From contig NC_052399.1 in NCBI RefSeq assembly GCF_009389715.1, forward strand, positions 15,069,646 through 15,133,645: a DNA stretch of 64,000 nucleotides, given 5' to 3'. The notes beneath the pieces are model-generated. The model saw only the letters and a program-made list of their open reading frames with translations. It had not been told where the DNA came from and did no database searches. How positions within the stretch are numbered: the stretch's first letter is position 1; each line of letters starts with the position of its first letter. Source of the DNA: Phoenix dactylifera. Taxonomy: Eukaryota > Streptophyta > Magnoliopsida > Arecales > Arecaceae. Below, in pieces: positions 7,592 to 62,297 of this stretch. The position numbers and the translations under genes were made by a program.

Positions 7592-8568
7592 AAAAATATC
7601 TATATAATTGATGATATTGTAAAATTAGCAAATCTTAAAATAATCTATACGAATATAAAATATTTATTTAGCAAATTCAAATGATTATATAATGTTAGAA
7701 ATAATGCTTAATCAAATTATTATATAACCAAAATTCACTTATACACAAAATCATGAAGTTATTTGCTTCTTCAATGAGTCTAAACAAGCTTCATATCATG
7801 CGTAAGTTATTTTTATTCAAGTTATTATTTCTTTGACAAAAAAAAATCAATAAGTCAATTTTAACTTTTTTAAATAAATGAATAACTTTTGAACAATCTT
7901 GCACTTTTGGACAAAGACGAGAAATTGATTTTATTAATTCGGCTTTATGATATATTGCATCCTGTACTACAAAATTTTAACACAAACTTCAGTGGATTCA
8001 AAAATTAGCAGAACCAAACAGACCCAAATGTTTTTAATCAAATAAAATAATTTTTATTTCCAATGATCTCATTTGATTGAAAACATTTTATTCTACTAGC
8101 TCATGCCAATTTTTAAATCCACTAAAAGTTATTATAAAATTTTATGGTATGGACATGATATATTGTAAAACCGGATCAAGAAAATCAATTTCTCGTATAT
8201 ATTCCAAAGAACGAGATGGTTTAAACGTTCTTCAATGTTCATTTAAAAAATAAAATTTACTTATTAATATCGAACAACATAAATAAAATTAACTTACACA
8301 TAATATAAACCTCACTTCATCTTATTGGCAAACAAAAAAATAAAACTTAATAATTTTGTGTACAAGTAAATCTTGATAATATAATAATTTGATTAAACAT
8401 TATGCCTAACATTCTCCAATCATTTGAATTTATACTTAAAAAATTATTAAGAATATCAATAATTTAAAAGTTTAATATAATCCTAAAAATATTTAGAAAT
8501 AAATACTTGATAACAATTATTCCAAAATTTGCTAACTTCGCAACACCATTAACCACATAGATATTTTC
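7592..8568. repeat. large foldback (inverted repeat), about 480-bp arms
   Basis: The left arm reads from taaaaatatctat near 7592 to about 8055. Its reverse complement is recovered, diverged but colinear, from 8568 down to about 8070. Matching blocks include AAATTCAAATGATT, TTAATCAAATTATTATAT, TACACAAAAT, ACGAGAAATTGATTTT and the central ATGTTTT-AATCAAAT. The loop is very short. Many differences are C-to-T or G-to-A type, suggesting an old element. No coding sequence or clear target duplication was found. It may be a foldback-type MITE or an inverted duplication of a shorter repeat. Confidence 0.75.
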
Positions 8569-10493
8569 AACATCCAAAGATCCATGAGAATATTTTTTTT
8601 CATTGAGTGCAGCAATCCTATTAACTATTTCCCTGCAAAATGGAACAATGTGTTAAAATAGGAATATACAAACATATTTTACGCAAGACTCTTCATTGCC
8701 TAGAATAGTATAAGAAAACAAAGGTACAATCAAGGATACCTTATAATTTGTTTTTTGGAATCGTTGAGTAAAACAATAACAAACTTATGGCATTCGTTGA
8801 AGCATTAAAGTGACATTCCAAACTACCATTTTCGATCAAAAAAACTTCCAACATGCAATCAAATGAATGTGCCGCTAAAATCATCTCATTTCCCTTATAT
8901 ATATATATATATATATATACATGCATGTGTTTCCACCATATTTCGTGCTGTGAAGGCTTTAGAAATAGTATAGTAATTATTCCCAAAACCCATTGCCATG
9001 GAGGCAAATTTGTCTATCATATATTAATTTATCTTGTTGTCGATGGCAAAATCTTTTAATCTTATTTAGTAAGTCGCACACCTTGAAAGAATACTTTATG
9101 ATTATTGTTATTATCTGAAATGGATGTAATATATACATGCTAGATGAAAGAAATATAAGACCAATCAAGTCAAACAGTACGTGTACGGAAAACAAGATAA
9201 CATATACATCTCATCTGACTTTTTAAAAAGAACAAGAAATTTCATATACTAAAATGGAATGCATGCATCATAATTCTTCACTCTAAAACATTAATCATGA
9301 TATTCCATCAGAAACACATTGCTAAATTGAAACATAAAGAATGAAGTATTTGTTATGCAACTTGCAAGATAAAAGACCCCTAGAGCCCTACGTAATCATT
9401 GGCAGCAGAAGAAGGTACGACTACTACCTCCTCTGAAATGCTAACACACCTCCCATATGACATAGTTGTAAATACCAATACCAATGAGACTGCTGTAGTT
9501 AATAACAAAAACTAGATGAAACAGCCCAAAGCTAGCAATAAAGAGCTTAAAACATAAACAAGAAACCAAAAAGAAAGAAAAAAAAAGGCAAAGATCTAGA
9601 CTGATTTGAAAAATTCCTTATAGAATTATCAGATCAAGAAGCATCAAGAAACCATCAACATCATGAATTGGTTCCATGAACCCACAGAATCACATCACAA
9701 GTAGCTAGAAGAAAACCTTAGAATTTGGAGCAGCAGTATGGACGAAAATACAAAATTGTTTATTCCCAATCATAACTAGATCTTCATTTTTTTTTTTTAA
9801 GAAAAAAAAGGGAGAGTTGGGGTTCAAATCCCTACCAGGAGAAATGAGAAATGATGTCAAAGAGAGGGTTATAAATTGTAATGAAATCCAATATGATTCA
9901 AATATTTCATATCCCTCCTTGTCCAAACAAAATGGGGCAATCAATTTGAGTGGAAGGTCCTTAGAAGTTAGAATTAGTCTCTTTTGTGTTACAAGAACTT
10001 TATATCAGAGTAGAAGCCACAAAAGGAGAATTATGAATTTATCTGATTGGATGTAAACTATATATATTATCATATAAATTCATTATCATATAAATAGTAT
10101 GATCATACTGTTTATATGATTAATATCACCTTTAAAGACCCAAAAGGAGAATTAGGAATTTATTTACTATGTTTACAGCAGCAGCTTTTAAGCATGTAGG
10201 AATCCTTTACAGCTTCCCAACTACACAATGGTCATGCAACATGAACTAAGGCATCTTTTGCCTAGTAATAGAAGGCCCCATGACAAATACAAAACAGAGA
10301 GAAGAAGAAAGCTTAACATCATATTGGTTAAGTGGACACCTTATAATAAACAAGAATAATAATAGCAGAAACAACTTAGAAGCTGCTCATCATATTGCTG
10401 ATATGATTAGCATTATTCCTTTAAAGATGGTTTTATTTTCCTGAGGCCGGATGCTGTAGAGCAAATGTTAAATGCGTATACAAATATGGATCA
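8569..10493. other. AT-rich intergenic DNA with a (TA)n tract
   Basis: No gene is supported. A (TA)n microsatellite lies at about 8898-8919. A 32-bp near-perfect palindrome lies at 10087-10118, flanked by direct repeats of aaaaggagaatta (near 10020 and 10142). Confidence 0.55.
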
Positions 10494-10808
10494 AAACTTT
10501 ATACTGCTCCAACATGGACTTATAAAAACTATAATAGTAAAACAGTTCCCATTGCAGGAAAAGTAAGTAATCAATAGAAAGACCAGATTTTGATAATGAA
10601 AAGCATACTTTCTAATAAATGCTAAATATTATGCAAAGTGAAATGTATATATAAATTCAGGGCAAAGCTTTATATTGCTCCAACATGTACTTATAAAACT
10701 ATAATAGAAAAACAGTTTTCATCGTGGGGAAAGTAAGTAATCAATACAAAGACCAGATTTCTAATATGAAAATAAACTTTTTTATAAATGCTGAATATTG
10801 TGCAAACT
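10494..10808 (+). repeat. decayed tandem duplication, about 169-bp unit
   Basis: Two adjacent copies share blocks such as tgctccaacatg, gtaagtaatcaata and aaagaccagattt, at 10494-10640 and 10663-10808. They differ by scattered substitutions and small indels. No protein is encoded. Confidence 0.8.
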
Positions 10809-11120: not shown

Positions 11121-11295
11121 GCACTAGAAAGACCAATAGAACTAAACTTAACAACAGACAACATAAAGAGAATAAATGAGATTGGTGAGGCAGTACTACT
11201 GGAATACAAAATTACCAAAAATTAAATGAAATACTGCATAGGCAACAGTGAAACTGGAGCAATGCGAAACAAGGACCATGTCAGAAATAATTTAC

Positions 11296-12028
11296 CTCGA
11301 ACAGAGACCGCAATTCCGAATAATCCGCATGACGATTAATGTTCCGCACAAATAAAGTTCTTGAGGGATGCTCCCGATGTTCCCCAGCAGTAGTTCCAAC
11401 ATCATTTGAAGGCTGTACTGATTAATCCCATTACCAGTATAGCCATCAACAATACTTGCCTTTGACATCCCAATTTGTGAGGCTCTCTGTAGGATCAGAA
11501 ACCAATACTACACCCCCTCCACTGCCAAAGAGATCAAACGTTTCCAATTCCTCCACATGACAAGGAAACCCACCAAGGTCAAAATCATCTATTATTCCAG
11601 CTAAATGCTCCTCTTCATCGTCAGGTAACAGGCTCCCAGTCCCTTGGAGGTCAAGATCCTCGACAGAATCCTTACCCTCAATCTTTTTACGCAACTTATT
11701 CACTTCAGAAGAAACCTCATCCATCGCTAAATAGCAACGCAAAGCACACAAAAAAACTATCAATCTAAGGTTGTTGGTCCTTAAAAATGGTAGAAATAAA
11801 CAGCTGCATACATTGCTTGTGTGGAAGAACCGGTGAGGAGCTTCTTGACACCGACGGTGGTCATCGCCAAGAAAAGCAAGATTTAGGGAAGCGGATTTCC
11901 AAGGAAATCTAAAGACAAAAAAAAAAAAAAAAGATCGATTGCGTAGAGGCGATGATACCTTTGTAGTGAGCATCCGGCGGGGGCTTGCCGCCGGTGGACT
12001 TGCGAGCGGTCTGCTGCGTACGAGCCAT
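11296..12028 (-). pseudogene. chimeric pseudogene: histone H3 5' exons joined to a Mei2-like exon
   Basis: Reading the minus strand from 12028, the ATG opens MARTQQTARKSTGGK, the histone H3 N-terminus with Q in place of K4. A GT donor follows at 11959/11958. After a T-rich intron ending TTTAG, sequence from 11908 still resembles the next H3 part (TT-GVKK-PHRF) but is interrupted and frame-shifted, and H3 similarity stops near 11826. From 11726, behind another AG acceptor, the sequence is that of a Mei2-like RNA-binding protein: EEHLAGIIDDFDLGGFP, then FDLFGSGGG, then EHPSRTLFVRNIN and ELRSLFE, ending at a GT donor at 11296/11295. This Mei2-like exon needs two frame changes to be read through. 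Retained introns show that both parts came from genomic DNA, not from mRNA. It is a compound pseudogene, or at most a transcribed non-coding chimera. Confidence 0.75.
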
Positions 12029-12247
12029 CGGACGAGGACGAGAGTGCTAAGTCCATGGTTTCGGAAAGGGGAAATGCAACGATCTGGGGACGAGAGAAAT
12101 GGGGAAGGGAGCGCGGGAAGACGTCGGAAGGGCTGATAAAAGGGGATTCTCGATCGATTGGAGAGGATCCGGTGGATGATATGTTTGAAGAATATCTGAT
12201 CGTGATTGATTTAGTCTACTTTCGAGCTCCTTAAAAGCAATTGAACC

Positions 12248-12827
12248 TGGTGAGCCTTTAATAACTCGGGACATCAATAACTCTTGCCCATACAGCCCCC
12301 AACCCTCCAAGCTTCTTCAAAATCAACTTGGTGGCTGTGTTTGAATGGTGGCAAGAGGAGTAGCGTGAGCTTCGTAATTAGAGGCCCGAACTCTAAAATG
12401 GTGGCAGCCGAAAAATCTGATTTTTGACATCTCGGTCCCTGATGCGGGATAGAACTAAGAGCAATTTAGGGTGGTCTATGTCATGCTCAGCGTATGCTAA
12501 GACCGATGTTATCATGAAGGTAACTCAACCGCTGTGATCGGCTGAATTCAAAATTGTCCTGGCATAGCTGGAAAACAGCACCTCCTGTTTTGGAACATCT
12601 AGGGCATAGCTAGTGGTAACATTATCTTTAGCACGAAGTATGTTTTTAAGAAGGTCAACGGAACTAAGGACTGAGTGGCCTTCTTTGTAGCAAATCACTT
12701 TATGAGAGTTTTTTGGACCGGCGAGGAAGAGCTACCTCGGGCGCTTCGTGACTTATTATATGTTGACTTTTTTTTTTTAATGTATTCATATTGGATTAGC
12801 ATGAGTCGTCTAGTGTAGCAAAAAAAA
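12248..12827 (+). mobile_element. 5'-truncated LINE, RNase H to tail
   Basis: The 15-bp direct repeat AAAAGCAATWGAACC flanks this block (12233-12247 and 12828-12842, one mismatch), and the right end carries an A-run. Inside, frame-shifted RNase H sequence can be followed (PPSFFKIN, SFVIRGPNSKMVAA, GGLCHAQRMLR). It is thus a dead LINE 3' fragment inserted by target-primed reverse transcription, plus strand. Confidence 0.8.
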
Positions 12828-12842
12828 AAAAGCAATAGAACC

Positions 12843-43249: not shown

Positions 43250-45385
43250 TCACCAGCAATCTCCACATGAACAAAAACCTTCCCTGAAGTGGTGAAAGCG
43301 ACTTGAATCCCTCAAGACAATCTCACGTCCCACAATCTTTGATATGACTTTTATGGCAGAGTGACAATCACCACAAACCCGGAGGTTCTTCATAATGCGA
43401 ATCGTGCTGCCTTCTACAGTACTAAGCAGCGCAAAGGCAATAGCAAGCTTCTCGCTGTGGTATGTCAACACGGCCTCCTTCTGTTCATCATCCACGTCAT
43501 GTAATGCAAAACTCCTATCATAAACATATCCATGCTCCTTTAGTTTCCCTCCCAGCCAATCCAGTTTTTTGTATATCTCTTTGGTCATTGGGTGAGACCT
43601 ATCTCCACAAACAAATTCATGCCTCGAGTCCTTTAGTGTAATCCAGCTATAACCTGGTATCTTCATGATTCCTCGAATCCTCATCATCACTCTAGTTTGG
43701 GAGACATCATTCCACTTACCAGCAGAAGCATATATGTTGGACAGTAAAACATAAGCTGCACTATTATATGGGTCCAGATCAAAGATCTTCTGCGAAGCTC
43801 TTCGAGCAACTTCTAAGTTAGTATGCACTCTACAGGCGCTAAGCAAAACCAGCCAAACTGCAACATTTGGTTTCATAGGCATGCTACTTATGAAATCTTC
43901 AGCTTCCTCCAAGTTTCCGCATCGACCCAAAACATCAACCATGGAAGCATAGTGCTCAAGCTTCACATCAACCAAAAGGTCCTCTTTTAATTGTTGGAAA
44001 ATTTGTCTTCCCCTCTCAATCATCCTAGAATGGCTACAAGCAGTCAGCAGCCCAACATATGTAATCTCATCAGGTTGTTCAAGGCTCGATTTCATGTCAC
44101 CAAAAAGCTTTAGGGCCCACAATGCATAGCCATTTTGTGCACAACCAACTATGATAGAGTTCCATGACACAAGGTTCCTCCTCCTCATGTTGTTAAATAC
44201 CATTAAGCTGTTATCTATGTCCCCGCATTTTGAGTATAATACAATGAGAGAATTCCCCACGAACACATCAATATCTAATCCTAGCTTAATTGCATTCCCA
44301 TGAATCTTCCTACCTTGATCAAGGGATTCTAGTCCACTGCATGAGTTCAATGCACTGGTGAATGTGGATTGGTTCGGCCTGATCCCAGAAAGAACCATTC
44401 TGTTGAACTCATCCAATGCATCCTCATGCCTACCATTCAAACCATAAGCGGTTATGAGAGCTGTCCATGAGACCAAATTCCTGTCCCCATTTTCATGAAA
44501 TAATTTGGTAGAGTTCTCAATCTGCTTGCAGTTGGCATACAGGGTAAGAAGAGAAGTGGAAACAAACGTATCTGAAAGATAGCCCACTTTTGAAATATAA
44601 GCATGAAGCTGAGTACCCAGCCCTAAATCTAGCCCATTGGCACATGCTGTCAGTGCACAGGCATACGTGCTTGATGTGGGCTTTATCCCTGAAGCCCACA
44701 TTTGTTCAAAAAGGTGCAGTGCTTCGTTGCTCTCCCCATTCTGATCATATCCCCCAATCATCGCAGTCCAAGAGATCACATTGGGGCACGGCATTTTCTC
44801 AAATAACAAGCGAGCATCCATAACTCTACCGTTGCTGCAGTACCCCGATATCATAGAATTCCATGCAGCGGTGTCCCTCTGAGGCATCCTCCAGAACAAT
44901 CCCTCCGCAGCATCAATTCGACCAACCTGTGCGAGCCCATTTATGATAGTAGTCCAAGAGATCACATTTCGCTCGGGCATTTCATCAAAGAGCTTTTCAG
45001 CAAGATGCAGATCTCCACAGTCCAGGCAGGCCTTGATCATAGAATTCCAGGAGGCTGCATCTCGGGCCGGCATCTCATTGAAAAGTTGAAAAGCCTGGTC
45101 AATGCGTTTGATTCGTGCGTAGCCAGTGATCATCATGGTGTAGAGATGGACGTCGGGAGACGAGATTCTCGAGAAAACATGACGGGCTCCATCGATGTCA
45201 TTGTTTCCAAGGAGATGGGAGAGTATTGCCTTCCAATGGGAGCTGCCTTCTTTGAAGTCACGCTTCGAAGCCGCGGAGGGAGGGAAAGTTTTGTGGCGGG
45301 TAGTGGAGGATCCATGAAGAGTGAGGTGTTTGTGATGGCACACGGAGGGGTTGCGATTCGAAATTGGCGCGGGAAGCCTCCTCAT
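43250..45385 (-). CDS. PLS-class pentatricopeptide repeat protein with E and DYW domains
   Basis: Such proteins bind organelle transcripts through the PPR array and convert C to U with the DYW deaminase. The single-exon frame of 711 residues is a typical length. The N-terminus is basic and serine/threonine-rich and could be an organelle transit peptide. PPR motifs run from about residue 60 to 540 (VHLYTMMITGYARIKRIDQA; ASWNSMIKACLDCGDLHLA; NVISWTTIINGLAQVGRIDA). The E/E+ region follows, with the PG-type box PGYSWITLKDSRHEF. The DYW domain has the zinc and catalytic signature HSEKLAIAF...CGDCHSA. The last three residues are DCW rather than DYW. The architecture resembles Arabidopsis At5g46460-like proteins, a weak suggestion only. 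It is probably divergent from the endosulfine gene whose 5' region starts about 1.1 kb to the right. Confidence 0.93.
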   Translation of the reverse strand: MRRLPAPISNRNPSVCHHKHLTLHGSSTTRHKTFPPSAASKRDFKEGSSHWKAILSHLLGNNDIDGARHVFSRISSPDVHLYTMMITGYARIKRIDQAFQLFNEMPARDAASWNSMIKACLDCGDLHLAEKLFDEMPERNVISWTTIINGLAQVGRIDAAEGLFWRMPQRDTAAWNSMISGYCSNGRVMDARLLFEKMPCPNVISWTAMIGGYDQNGESNEALHLFEQMWASGIKPTSSTYACALTACANGLDLGLGTQLHAYISKVGYLSDTFVSTSLLTLYANCKQIENSTKLFHENGDRNLVSWTALITAYGLNGRHEDALDEFNRMVLSGIRPNQSTFTSALNSCSGLESLDQGRKIHGNAIKLGLDIDVFVGNSLIVLYSKCGDIDNSLMVFNNMRRRNLVSWNSIIVGCAQNGYALWALKLFGDMKSSLEQPDEITYVGLLTACSHSRMIERGRQIFQQLKEDLLVDVKLEHYASMVDVLGRCGNLEEAEDFISSMPMKPNVAVWLVLLSACRVHTNLEVARRASQKIFDLDPYNSAAYVLLSNIYASAGKWNDVSQTRVMMRIRGIMKIPGYSWITLKDSRHEFVCGDRSHPMTKEIYKKLDWLGGKLKEHGYVYDRSFALHDVDDEQKEAVLTYHSEKLAIAFALLSTVEGSTIRIMKNLRVCGDCHSAIKVISKIVGREIVLRDSSRFHHFREGFCSCGDCW

Positions 45386-46480
45386 GGCTGTTTATTGGGC
45401 CGCTCTGACGAAGCTCCGCAGATATTTCAATAGGAGGCTCCCAGCCCAACTTTCCCAAGTCCTAACCCAATCAAATAGTATTATGATCACGTCGCCTAAG
45501 GAGTTAGAATCAAAAAGGAGAACTTAATGACCGGCCTTTTAGTGGGACTGGACTCTTACACTAAAAAAAAAAAGAAAAAAAAGCCTCTTTTCACTAATCT
45601 TTTAACATCCGGTCTGGTAAAGTACACACATGACACACCATAGTGTGGCAACATATGGAAAAAAGACTAGAAATTAAACAGCGGGCCAACCACCCTTTTT
45701 TTTCTTGCAAGCAGGCCTACGGAGGAACCGTATATTAAATTATGCAATCAAAATATTAATGAAATTATGATGGAGACAGGATGGAAAACTTGCAATAAAA
45801 AGATCCTATAACTTCAAGCCCGATGAAAAATCAAAGGCTTACTGTGGAGTGACTTCGTTAAGGGATCTTAAATAATCTTCCTTGTTTTTTATTTTTTTGT
45901 TAGATTATGATGACCGAACATTCATACTCTCTATATACGGCTCAAACTTAAGAATTTATAAGTAATTAAAGATCCAATTATAGACATAGCAACACTTTTT
46001 TTCTGGACATAAAAATGGTCATGTACTTTTTTTTTTGTGGGCCAAACTTATGTCTTTAAAGTATATTTAGAACCTATAACTAATTCAAGATGCAACTAAA
46101 GGTAATTTTCTAATGATATGTCCCATAAGAAGTTTATATAGCGCTTTTTCAGTAGTCGTGCATATCTCGAGCCTTTTAATAATTAAAATCCCCCTTAGTT
46201 ACCGGTCCACCATTTTATTTTTCTTTCAATTTATTTGGTGGAGCCACCCTCAAATGATTGCAACAGTCAATATATCCATCTCCGATGAATGATAATCACA
46301 ACAACAGGTCGTTTTGAGCAGTTCCGGCGCTTCAAGTGCCGGCCGGATCTCGTTCAAATCTAAGACGGGCATTCTTACATATACCCCCCTGCCAAAGTAA
46401 TATTGACGATCAGTGTCCCACCGACTGCTATGAGATCGTCAAATTGAGACCTATGGCTATCTGGTCGTAGAATCCCTAGA
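45386..46480. other. spacer between PPR and endosulfine genes
   Basis: It should contain the PPR promoter on the left and the endosulfine promoter on the right. Several homopolymer runs are present. No gene is recognised. Confidence 0.5.
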
Positions 46481-48977: not shown

Positions 48978-50066
48978 TTTCTTGCCTAAGAATTATATGT
49001 TTTGGCCTTATGTCATAATGAGAGTGCTTTCATTATTCAATCAGCTCCTACAGATGCACCACAAGACTTGAGTATTGCTTTGTAGAAATTCTTTTTCTTG
49101 CCCTGGATTTTTGATACATTCTGTTTCAAGTGGGTGGCAGATATAGTTTATACTTACATACATACGCATGTCTATCAGTATATGCGAACAGAGAAAAGCT
49201 AGAAATACTTCAGGAGTTATTGGTCTGTACTTCCTCCAACCAAAATTCAATGGCAGCCCTTTGAAAGTGAAAAGTCTGACCTTTGATCATGATCTATGAT
49301 GTTTGTATTGCCTGGAAATGAAAAAATATCAAGTGTTTCAAAGGTCTCTTATCTATGCATTAAACAAGCACAAAATGGAGGGTAACAACAGTTAGTGTGC
49401 TAAATTGTTTTGCAGGCTATGCAATTCAAAATTGTCACTTATCTATCTACTTCCATAGGTAAGAATTTTAAGAGACCTCTAGAGCATGTGGTTTTTGGTT
49501 TCATAAATCATATTCTTTCTTGCCTAAGATGTGTGTTCTGCATAAAATTATATGTTTTGGCCTTATGTCATAATGAGAGTGCTTTCATTATTCAATCAGC
49601 TCCTACAGATGCACCACAAGACTTGAGTATTGCTTTGTAGAAATTCTTTTTCTTGCCCTGGATTTTTGATACATTCTGTTTCAAGTGGGTGGCAGATATA
49701 GTTTATACTTACATACATGCGCATGTCTATCAGTGTATGCGAACAGAGAAAAGCTAGAAATACTTCGGGAGTTATTGGTCTGTACTTCCTCCAACCAAAA
49801 TTCAATGGCAGCCCTTTGAAAGTGAAAATTTAGACCTTTGATCATGATCTATGATGTTTGTATTGCCTGGAAATGAAAAAATATCAAGTGTTTCAAAGGT
49901 CTCTTATCTATGCATTAAACAAGCACAAAATGGAGGGTAACAACAGTTAGTGTGCTAAATTGTTTTGCAGGCTATGCAATTCAAAATTGTCACTTATCTA
50001 TCCACTTCCATAGGTAAGAATTTTAAGAGACCTCTAGAGCATGTGGTTTTTGGTTTCATAAATCAT
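48978..50066 (+). repeat. recent tandem duplication, 555-bp period
   Basis: The two copies (about 48978-49510 and 49511-50066) match almost base for base, with a few substitutions and a small insertion of about 20 bp near the start of the second copy. Each copy ends with ttttgcag, a 43-bp segment and gtaaga, which looks like an exon between splice sites (49416-49458 and 49971-50013). The low divergence means the duplication is young. Confidence 0.9.
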
Positions 50067-61602: not shown

Positions 61603-61617
61603 TATAAATATAAATAG
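61603..61617 (+). promoter_or_regulatory. TATA box of the HLH gene
   Basis: TATAAATATAAATAG lies 63-77 bp upstream of the ATG at 61680, a usual position for a plant core promoter with a short leader. Confidence 0.7.
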
Positions 61618-61679
61618 ACCACTACATCTGTTTCATAATTCATTATTTTCTCCTCCCGCTTCCTCCTCTGCTTCCCACC

Positions 61680-62297
61680 ATGATCTCATCCTCCTCCTCC
61701 TCCTCCGCTCCTTCCTCTTCCTCAGCGTCCGCTTCACGGATAAAACTGCGGCCCGGTCCGCCCACCCAGGCCCGGAACAAGTGGCGGACCGGCGCTCAAG
61801 AGCGGATCTACGGGCGCCGCCTCGTCGAGGCCCTCCGCTCCTCTCGGGCCGGCCGCTCGGCCGCAGCAGGCGGCGCCCGGGCCGTCAAGGAGGCGGCCGA
61901 CTCCGCCCTCGCCCTCACCGCCCGCGGACAGTCTCGGTGGAGCCGGGCCATCCTCTTCGGCCGCTTCCGCCGGCGCAAGCTCCTCCTCAAGGCCGGCGGC
62001 AAGGTCCGGCGGCGGCGGCGTGCAAGGCCGGCCGGGAAGTTCGCAGCGCTGCCTCATCCACCGGCGGCGCTGAAGGGGAAGAAGGTGAGGGATCGGCTCC
62101 GTGTGCTGGCCCGGCTTGTGCCGGGGTGCCGGAAGCTGTCGGCGCCGAGCCTGCTGGAGGAGGCGGCAGACTACTTGGCGGCGCTGGAGATGCAGGTGAA
62201 GGCGATGCGCACCCTCGCCGACGCCCTCTCGGCTGCAGCGCTCTCCCCTCCTTCTCCGCCGCCGCCGGCTGCCGCCGCCCCCGAACCGGAGAACTGA
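61680..62297 (+). CDS. atypical HLH transcription regulator, AIF/IBH1-like (bHLH147-151 type)
   Basis: Proteins of this group lack a working DNA-binding basic region and act in the nucleus by pairing with other (b)HLH factors, generally restraining brassinosteroid-linked growth. The single-exon, 205-residue frame begins with a serine run. It has a middle WRTGAQERIYGRRLVEALR segment and a RWSRAILFGRFRRRKLL segment typical of the group, then an HLH near residues 130-175 (VRDRLRVLARLVPGCRKLSA; EEAADYLAALEMQVKAMRTL). The basic part lacks the H-E-R DNA-contact pattern. The C-terminus is a proline/alanine tail. GC content is very high compared with the surroundings, common for monocot genes and not by itself a sign of transfer. 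A TATA box precedes it, and an AATAAT/ATAAAA cluster at about 62338-62350 may direct polyadenylation. The exact orthologue is not assignable. Confidence 0.9.
   Translation: MISSSSSSSAPSSSSASASRIKLRPGPPTQARNKWRTGAQERIYGRRLVEALRSSRAGRSAAAGGARAVKEAADSALALTARGQSRWSRAILFGRFRRRKLLLKAGGKVRRRRRARPAGKFAALPHPPAALKGKKVRDRLRVLARLVPGCRKLSAPSLLEEAADYLAALEMQVKAMRTLADALSAAALSPPSPPPPAAAAPEPEN

Follow-up and report, generated by a model that had tools for sequence, protein, structure and literature searches.

Unspliced fragments of unrelated genes, set in one orientation, are the usual content of transposable elements of the Pack-MULE, Helitron, and CACTA types. Plant histone H3.1 genes are reported to be without introns (PMC3342937). 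For AML1, a Mei2-like protein of Arabidopsis, yeast one-hybrid tests are reported to show transcriptional activation by N-terminal fragments, which the authors had not demonstrated in the plant (PMC553980). The locus described here lies in a stretch of 64,000 nucleotides of Phoenix dactylifera DNA, which was analyzed as a whole and is called the window; its genes and LINEs suggest plant nuclear DNA. An H3 piece and a Mei2-like piece were found there in the same orientation, as had been claimed in the original prediction, and both lie on the minus strand. The matches reported below support a chimera of two unrelated host-gene pieces. No paper was found that links Mei2-like genes with H3 and gene-fragment capture, and the Mei2-like peptide strings were absent from the papers searched; the chimera may still be published.

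Gene pieces at the locus

The H3 piece consists of two remnants on the minus strand, about 90 bp apart. The exon-1 remnant (12028-11959) opens with ATG and the tail MARTQQTARKSTGGK, encodes MART[Q]QTARKSTGGK, and runs on through a diverged PPPDAHYK to a good donor, AAG/GTATCA. Translation of 12028-11978 gave MARTQQTARKSTGGKPP, in which 15 of 17 residues equal those of a plant H3 query not drawn from a database (tblastn, E 4.4e-5). The same N-terminal tail matched an H3 chain in the PDB (phmmer, E 3.3e-4), and Pfam gave no family at E ≤ 1 for the peptide. The piece carries a K4Q change, its reading diverges past residue 15, and homology to H3 is gone past about residue 41. Splice sites were ranked with an approximate weight matrix, donors being compared with 3217 minus-strand GT sites, and on this scale the donor at 11958 falls in the 93rd percentile.

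This donor opens the intron-like stretch that separates the two remnants (11958-11868), and a strong acceptor-like site lies inside the stretch, off the H3 homology. The site, with 11908 as the first exon base, reaches the 98th percentile. Since it implies an intron of just 50 nt and sits 41 nt ahead of the H3 homology, the true exon-2 border looks eroded. The ATG and the donor that had been proposed for the H3 part stand; the acceptor is probably not the H3 exon border. The exon-2 remnant (11867-11827) reads AMTTVGVKKPHRF with one +2 frameshift in a frameshift-tolerant alignment; against APTTGGVKKPHRY of H3 it scored 37, compared to a best score of 27 in 60 shuffles. It has TT at positions 31-32, which we take to be H3.3-like. 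Because of this TT, the intron-like gap between the remnants, and the lack of introns in H3.1 genes mentioned above, the source was probably an intron-bearing gene of the H3.3 type.

The upstream flank of the H3 piece contains an old, 5'-truncated LINE relic on the plus strand (12248-12827), made up of an RNase H end and an A-tail. It was found by frameshift-tolerant protein alignment, with a score of 70, whereas none of 200 shuffled proteins scored above 49; at 12.25-12.83 kb, plain tblastn using this LINE as query gave nothing significant. Its target-site duplication, spotted by eye, consists of AAAAGCAATTGAACC (12233-12247) and AAAAGCAATAGAACC (12828-12842), which are alike at 14 of 15 positions. 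Since the relic sits between these duplications, the H3 upstream flank seems to pick up again past 12842. For an ORF opposite the relic (12528-12731, minus strand), the Pfam family DUF7632 came up below its cut-off of 27 bits (16.1 bits, E 0.012).

The Mei2-like piece occupies 11726-11296 on the minus strand, and homology was shown for 11643-11296. The query was a Mei2-like sequence not drawn from a database and written down after the window had been read. With this query, tblastn gave E 8e-30 with three in-frame stops, and a frameshift-tolerant alignment had 78 of 118 columns identical and a score of 330, compared to at most 34 in 10 shuffles. Relative to the query, the reading of the piece shifts by +1 near 11472 and by -1 near 11407, lacks two residues at one point, and has a single extra residue at two others. 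Between the frameshifts, 22 residues align solely in the other frame; the two 1-nt indels cancel each other out, and the aligned frame is otherwise without stops. Both frameshifts, which may stem from sequencing error, had been overlooked in the original prediction. It was right, by contrast, that the piece ends at a donor after ELRSLFE: this donor, GAG/GTAAAT at 11295, falls in the 99th percentile by the same approximate matrix. T-rich intron-like sequence follows, and a poly(A) tract is absent directly behind.

Neither of the two Mei2-like peptides gave a Pfam family at E ≤ 1. The ELRSLFE end resembles the RRM beta1-alpha1 region in two PDB entries, nucleolin at E 0.026 and a U1A/U1-70K fusion chain at E 0.63, although no stretch passed when taken alone. 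These PDB matches weakly back a Mei2-like identity of the second piece independently of that query. Relatives of a Mei2-like RRM1-RRM2 query were sought in three collections without plants, where, as expected from that content, none was found: 3 pattern matches in IMG/VR and 40 in GTDB genomes left 0 confirmed, and plasmids gave no match.

Several other features were observed in the window. A LINE with three long ORFs lies at 13.9-20.1 kb on the minus strand; one ORF, of 777 aa, has RT, zf-RVT, and RNase-H-like domains. No target-site duplication was found for this full LINE, the best candidate having 6 of 15 positions mismatched. An older LINE relic is present on the plus strand at 1-2.2 kb. 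A possible degenerate kinase exon, HGSLDVENIYVVNGVAKLANFG, lies behind an TTTTGCAG acceptor at 8652-8467, on the minus strand like the chimera; it is non-significant, with a Pfam PK_Tyr_Ser-Thr match of E 0.036 and 13.8 bits (cut-off 23.1) and no PDB kinase below E 0.42. About 760 bp at 7673-8431 are self-complementary (72% identical to their own reverse complement) and foldback- or MITE-like. At 10461-10806, a unit of about 170 bp occurs in two tandem copies that are 81% identical. At 48983-49511 and 49539-50066, a sequence of about 529 bp is directly repeated at 98% identity after a gap of 27 bp, as a tandem duplication or a miniature LTR-like pair. Two ORFs were named by eye: a PPR-like ORF of 713 aa (43250-45391, minus strand) and a bHLH/IBH1-like ORF (61614-62297, plus strand). 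The window has 0 tRNA genes and 0 matches at Rfam gathering thresholds.

Origin of the locus

The locus is probably a dead composite pseudogene, in which a genomic H3.3-type piece was joined to a genomic Mei2-like piece and both decayed, and no function is expected of it. An unspliced H3.3-type piece, comprising the 5' flank, exon 1, intron 1, and the start of exon 2, would have been joined head-to-tail and in one orientation to a Mei2-like piece in which one exon is followed by the first part of an intron and is probably preceded by the last part of another. Decay of both pieces would have followed the joining; frameshifts are present in each. Since intron-like sequence is kept in both, the pieces were probably joined as DNA and not by reverse transcription. 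As the agent we infer, leaning slightly, a repair-type patchwork, in which copied genomic filler would have been put into a break, over a transposon with eroded ends.

Capture of both pieces by a transposon of the Pack-MULE, Helitron, or CACTA type, whose ends are eroded or lie beyond the tested flanks, is a possible but less probable alternative; it concerns the agent only and fits the pseudogene reading. It is favored by the content of the locus, which carries host-gene fragments as a Pack-MULE does, unspliced, unrelated, and in one orientation as is typical of such elements. A search for terminal inverted repeats with target-site duplications also gave 38 candidates compared to 6-26 in 20 controls, which is above chance by that control. 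Among the 15 of these 38 that were listed, however, the best candidate, although it has 5 of 20 positions mismatched compared to 6-8 for the controls' best, is placed in AT-rich sequence, and the second and third best fall within the LINE at 13.9 kb, in its 3' tail. Between 9 and 15 kb there are 25 inverted repeats, of 14-25 nt, most of which are A/T runs. BLAST of one flank against the other gave E 0.003 at best, with the best four matches in sequence of 76-89% A+T and three of them inverted, although a planted 120-bp repeat with about 20% divergence was recovered at 1e-27. Among the best 81 rows of a self-BLAST, the pairs spanning the locus were simple repeats of AT or GAG, apart from an inverted pair of 57 bp at 4.7 and 38.5 kb; the latter, with 77% identity, was rejected as carrier ends for being too short and too widely spaced.

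The searches for specific end types also argue against a transposon. No Helitron-type end (a 3' hairpin followed by CTRR, inserted before T) was found in 9-14.5 kb, and the 3 weak ends in 1-22 kb compare to 0-3 in 20 shuffles, in a search that recovered a planted end. CACTA/TAGTG ends around the pieces, 4 on the left and 3 on the right, were tried and rejected, since in none of the 12 pairs are the 3-bp flanks equal; this comparison covered the ends and their flanks, and no pair shares more than 9 of 15 end bases. No convincing pair of Pack-MULE ends, meaning terminal inverted repeats with a target-site duplication of 9-11 bp, was seen around the locus; such ends may have eroded beyond recognition. 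The flank search that had been suggested for terminal inverted repeats and Helitron ends yielded no convincing carrier ends. Of the origin put forward in the original prediction, the chimera of gene pieces is retained, and the capture by a transposon lacks support.

Another explanation, which we consider unlikely, is that a Mei2-like gene in decay, or even a living one, has its 5' part here, with its upstream end replaced by an H3 fragment and its other exons lying past the left edge of the window. The strong donor after ELRSLFE, with intron-like sequence behind it, is consistent with this. Base 1 of the window is reached 11.3 kb downstream of this donor, and the following exons might lie to the left of it, behind a long intron. 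The two frameshifts speak against such a gene, as does the interval to base 1, which holds the LINE relic at 1-2.2 kb and, oriented like the chimera, the weak kinase-like remnant whose matches are non-significant, and in which neither the rest of RRM1 (best score 29) nor an RRM2 exon (best 34) was detected. The search for missing exons, frameshift-tolerant over both strands of the 64 kb, covered RRM2 and the remaining parts of RRM1 and H3. The best score was 37 for the remainder of RRM1, where three shuffled queries gave 41-47; RRM2 reached 41 (shuffled 36-46) and the remainder of H3 reached 38 (shuffled 40-44). The RRM2 score tops two of the three shuffled controls, but it lies at 61.8 kb and on the plus strand. 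A functional H3 gene, with an ORF of about 136 residues, was not seen at the locus, nor was a functional Mei2-like gene, with three RRMs in an open frame, seen in the window as far as the rest of RRM1 and RRM2 were sought. The expectation that no complete H3 or Mei2-like gene continues from these exons was thus borne out within the window.

It is very improbable that a transcript of the locus is made and spliced between the donor at 11958 and an exon beginning at 11726, giving a predicted protein of 116 residues with the H3 tail (Q at position 4) and the Mei2-like N-terminal acidic region. The junction between the pieces (11826-11727, minus strand) has a T-rich intron-like end and a weak acceptor, TATTTAG/CG, in the 67th percentile. 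A computed splice from 11959 to 11726 keeps the frame between the H3 tail and the Mei2-like part for 116 aa, an outcome that 1 join in 3 gives by chance. If the fusion were true, it could act as a putative H3-tail decoy bearing a Mei2-like N-terminus.

The least probable account is a chimeric retrocopy, made by a LINE that switched between H3 and Mei2-like mRNAs: LINEs lie close to the locus, but a chimeric retrogene would have lost its introns and gained a poly(A) tail and a target-site duplication, whereas here intron-like sequence still separates the H3 remnants and follows the Mei2-like end, with no poly(A) directly behind that end. The LINE relic close by is oriented the other way and has a duplication of its own.

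Discussion

As it stands, the probable composite pseudogene is another case of plant genomes scattering and joining pieces of host genes. It would matter further only if transcription and conservation of the in-frame fusion were shown, or if a mobile carrier family were revealed by many copies.

Compared to plant histone H3.3 genes, the H3 piece differs in its K4Q change, its divergence past residue 15, and the loss of homology at about residue 41; it is like them in the sequence of its tail, in a coding region interrupted by an intron, and in the TT at 31-32. Compared to plant Mei2-like (AML/OML) genes, the second piece is frameshifted, and the rest of RRM1 and RRM2 go undetected in the window; it resembles the Mei2-like query in an acidic N-terminal stretch and in the first part of RRM1, as far as ELRSLFE. 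Unlike plant Pack-MULE and Helitron transduplicates, the locus has no detected pair of terminal inverted repeats with target-site duplication, CACTA pair, or Helitron end. Like those transduplicates, which are mostly dead, it consists of unspliced fragments of unrelated host genes in the same orientation and is probably dead itself.
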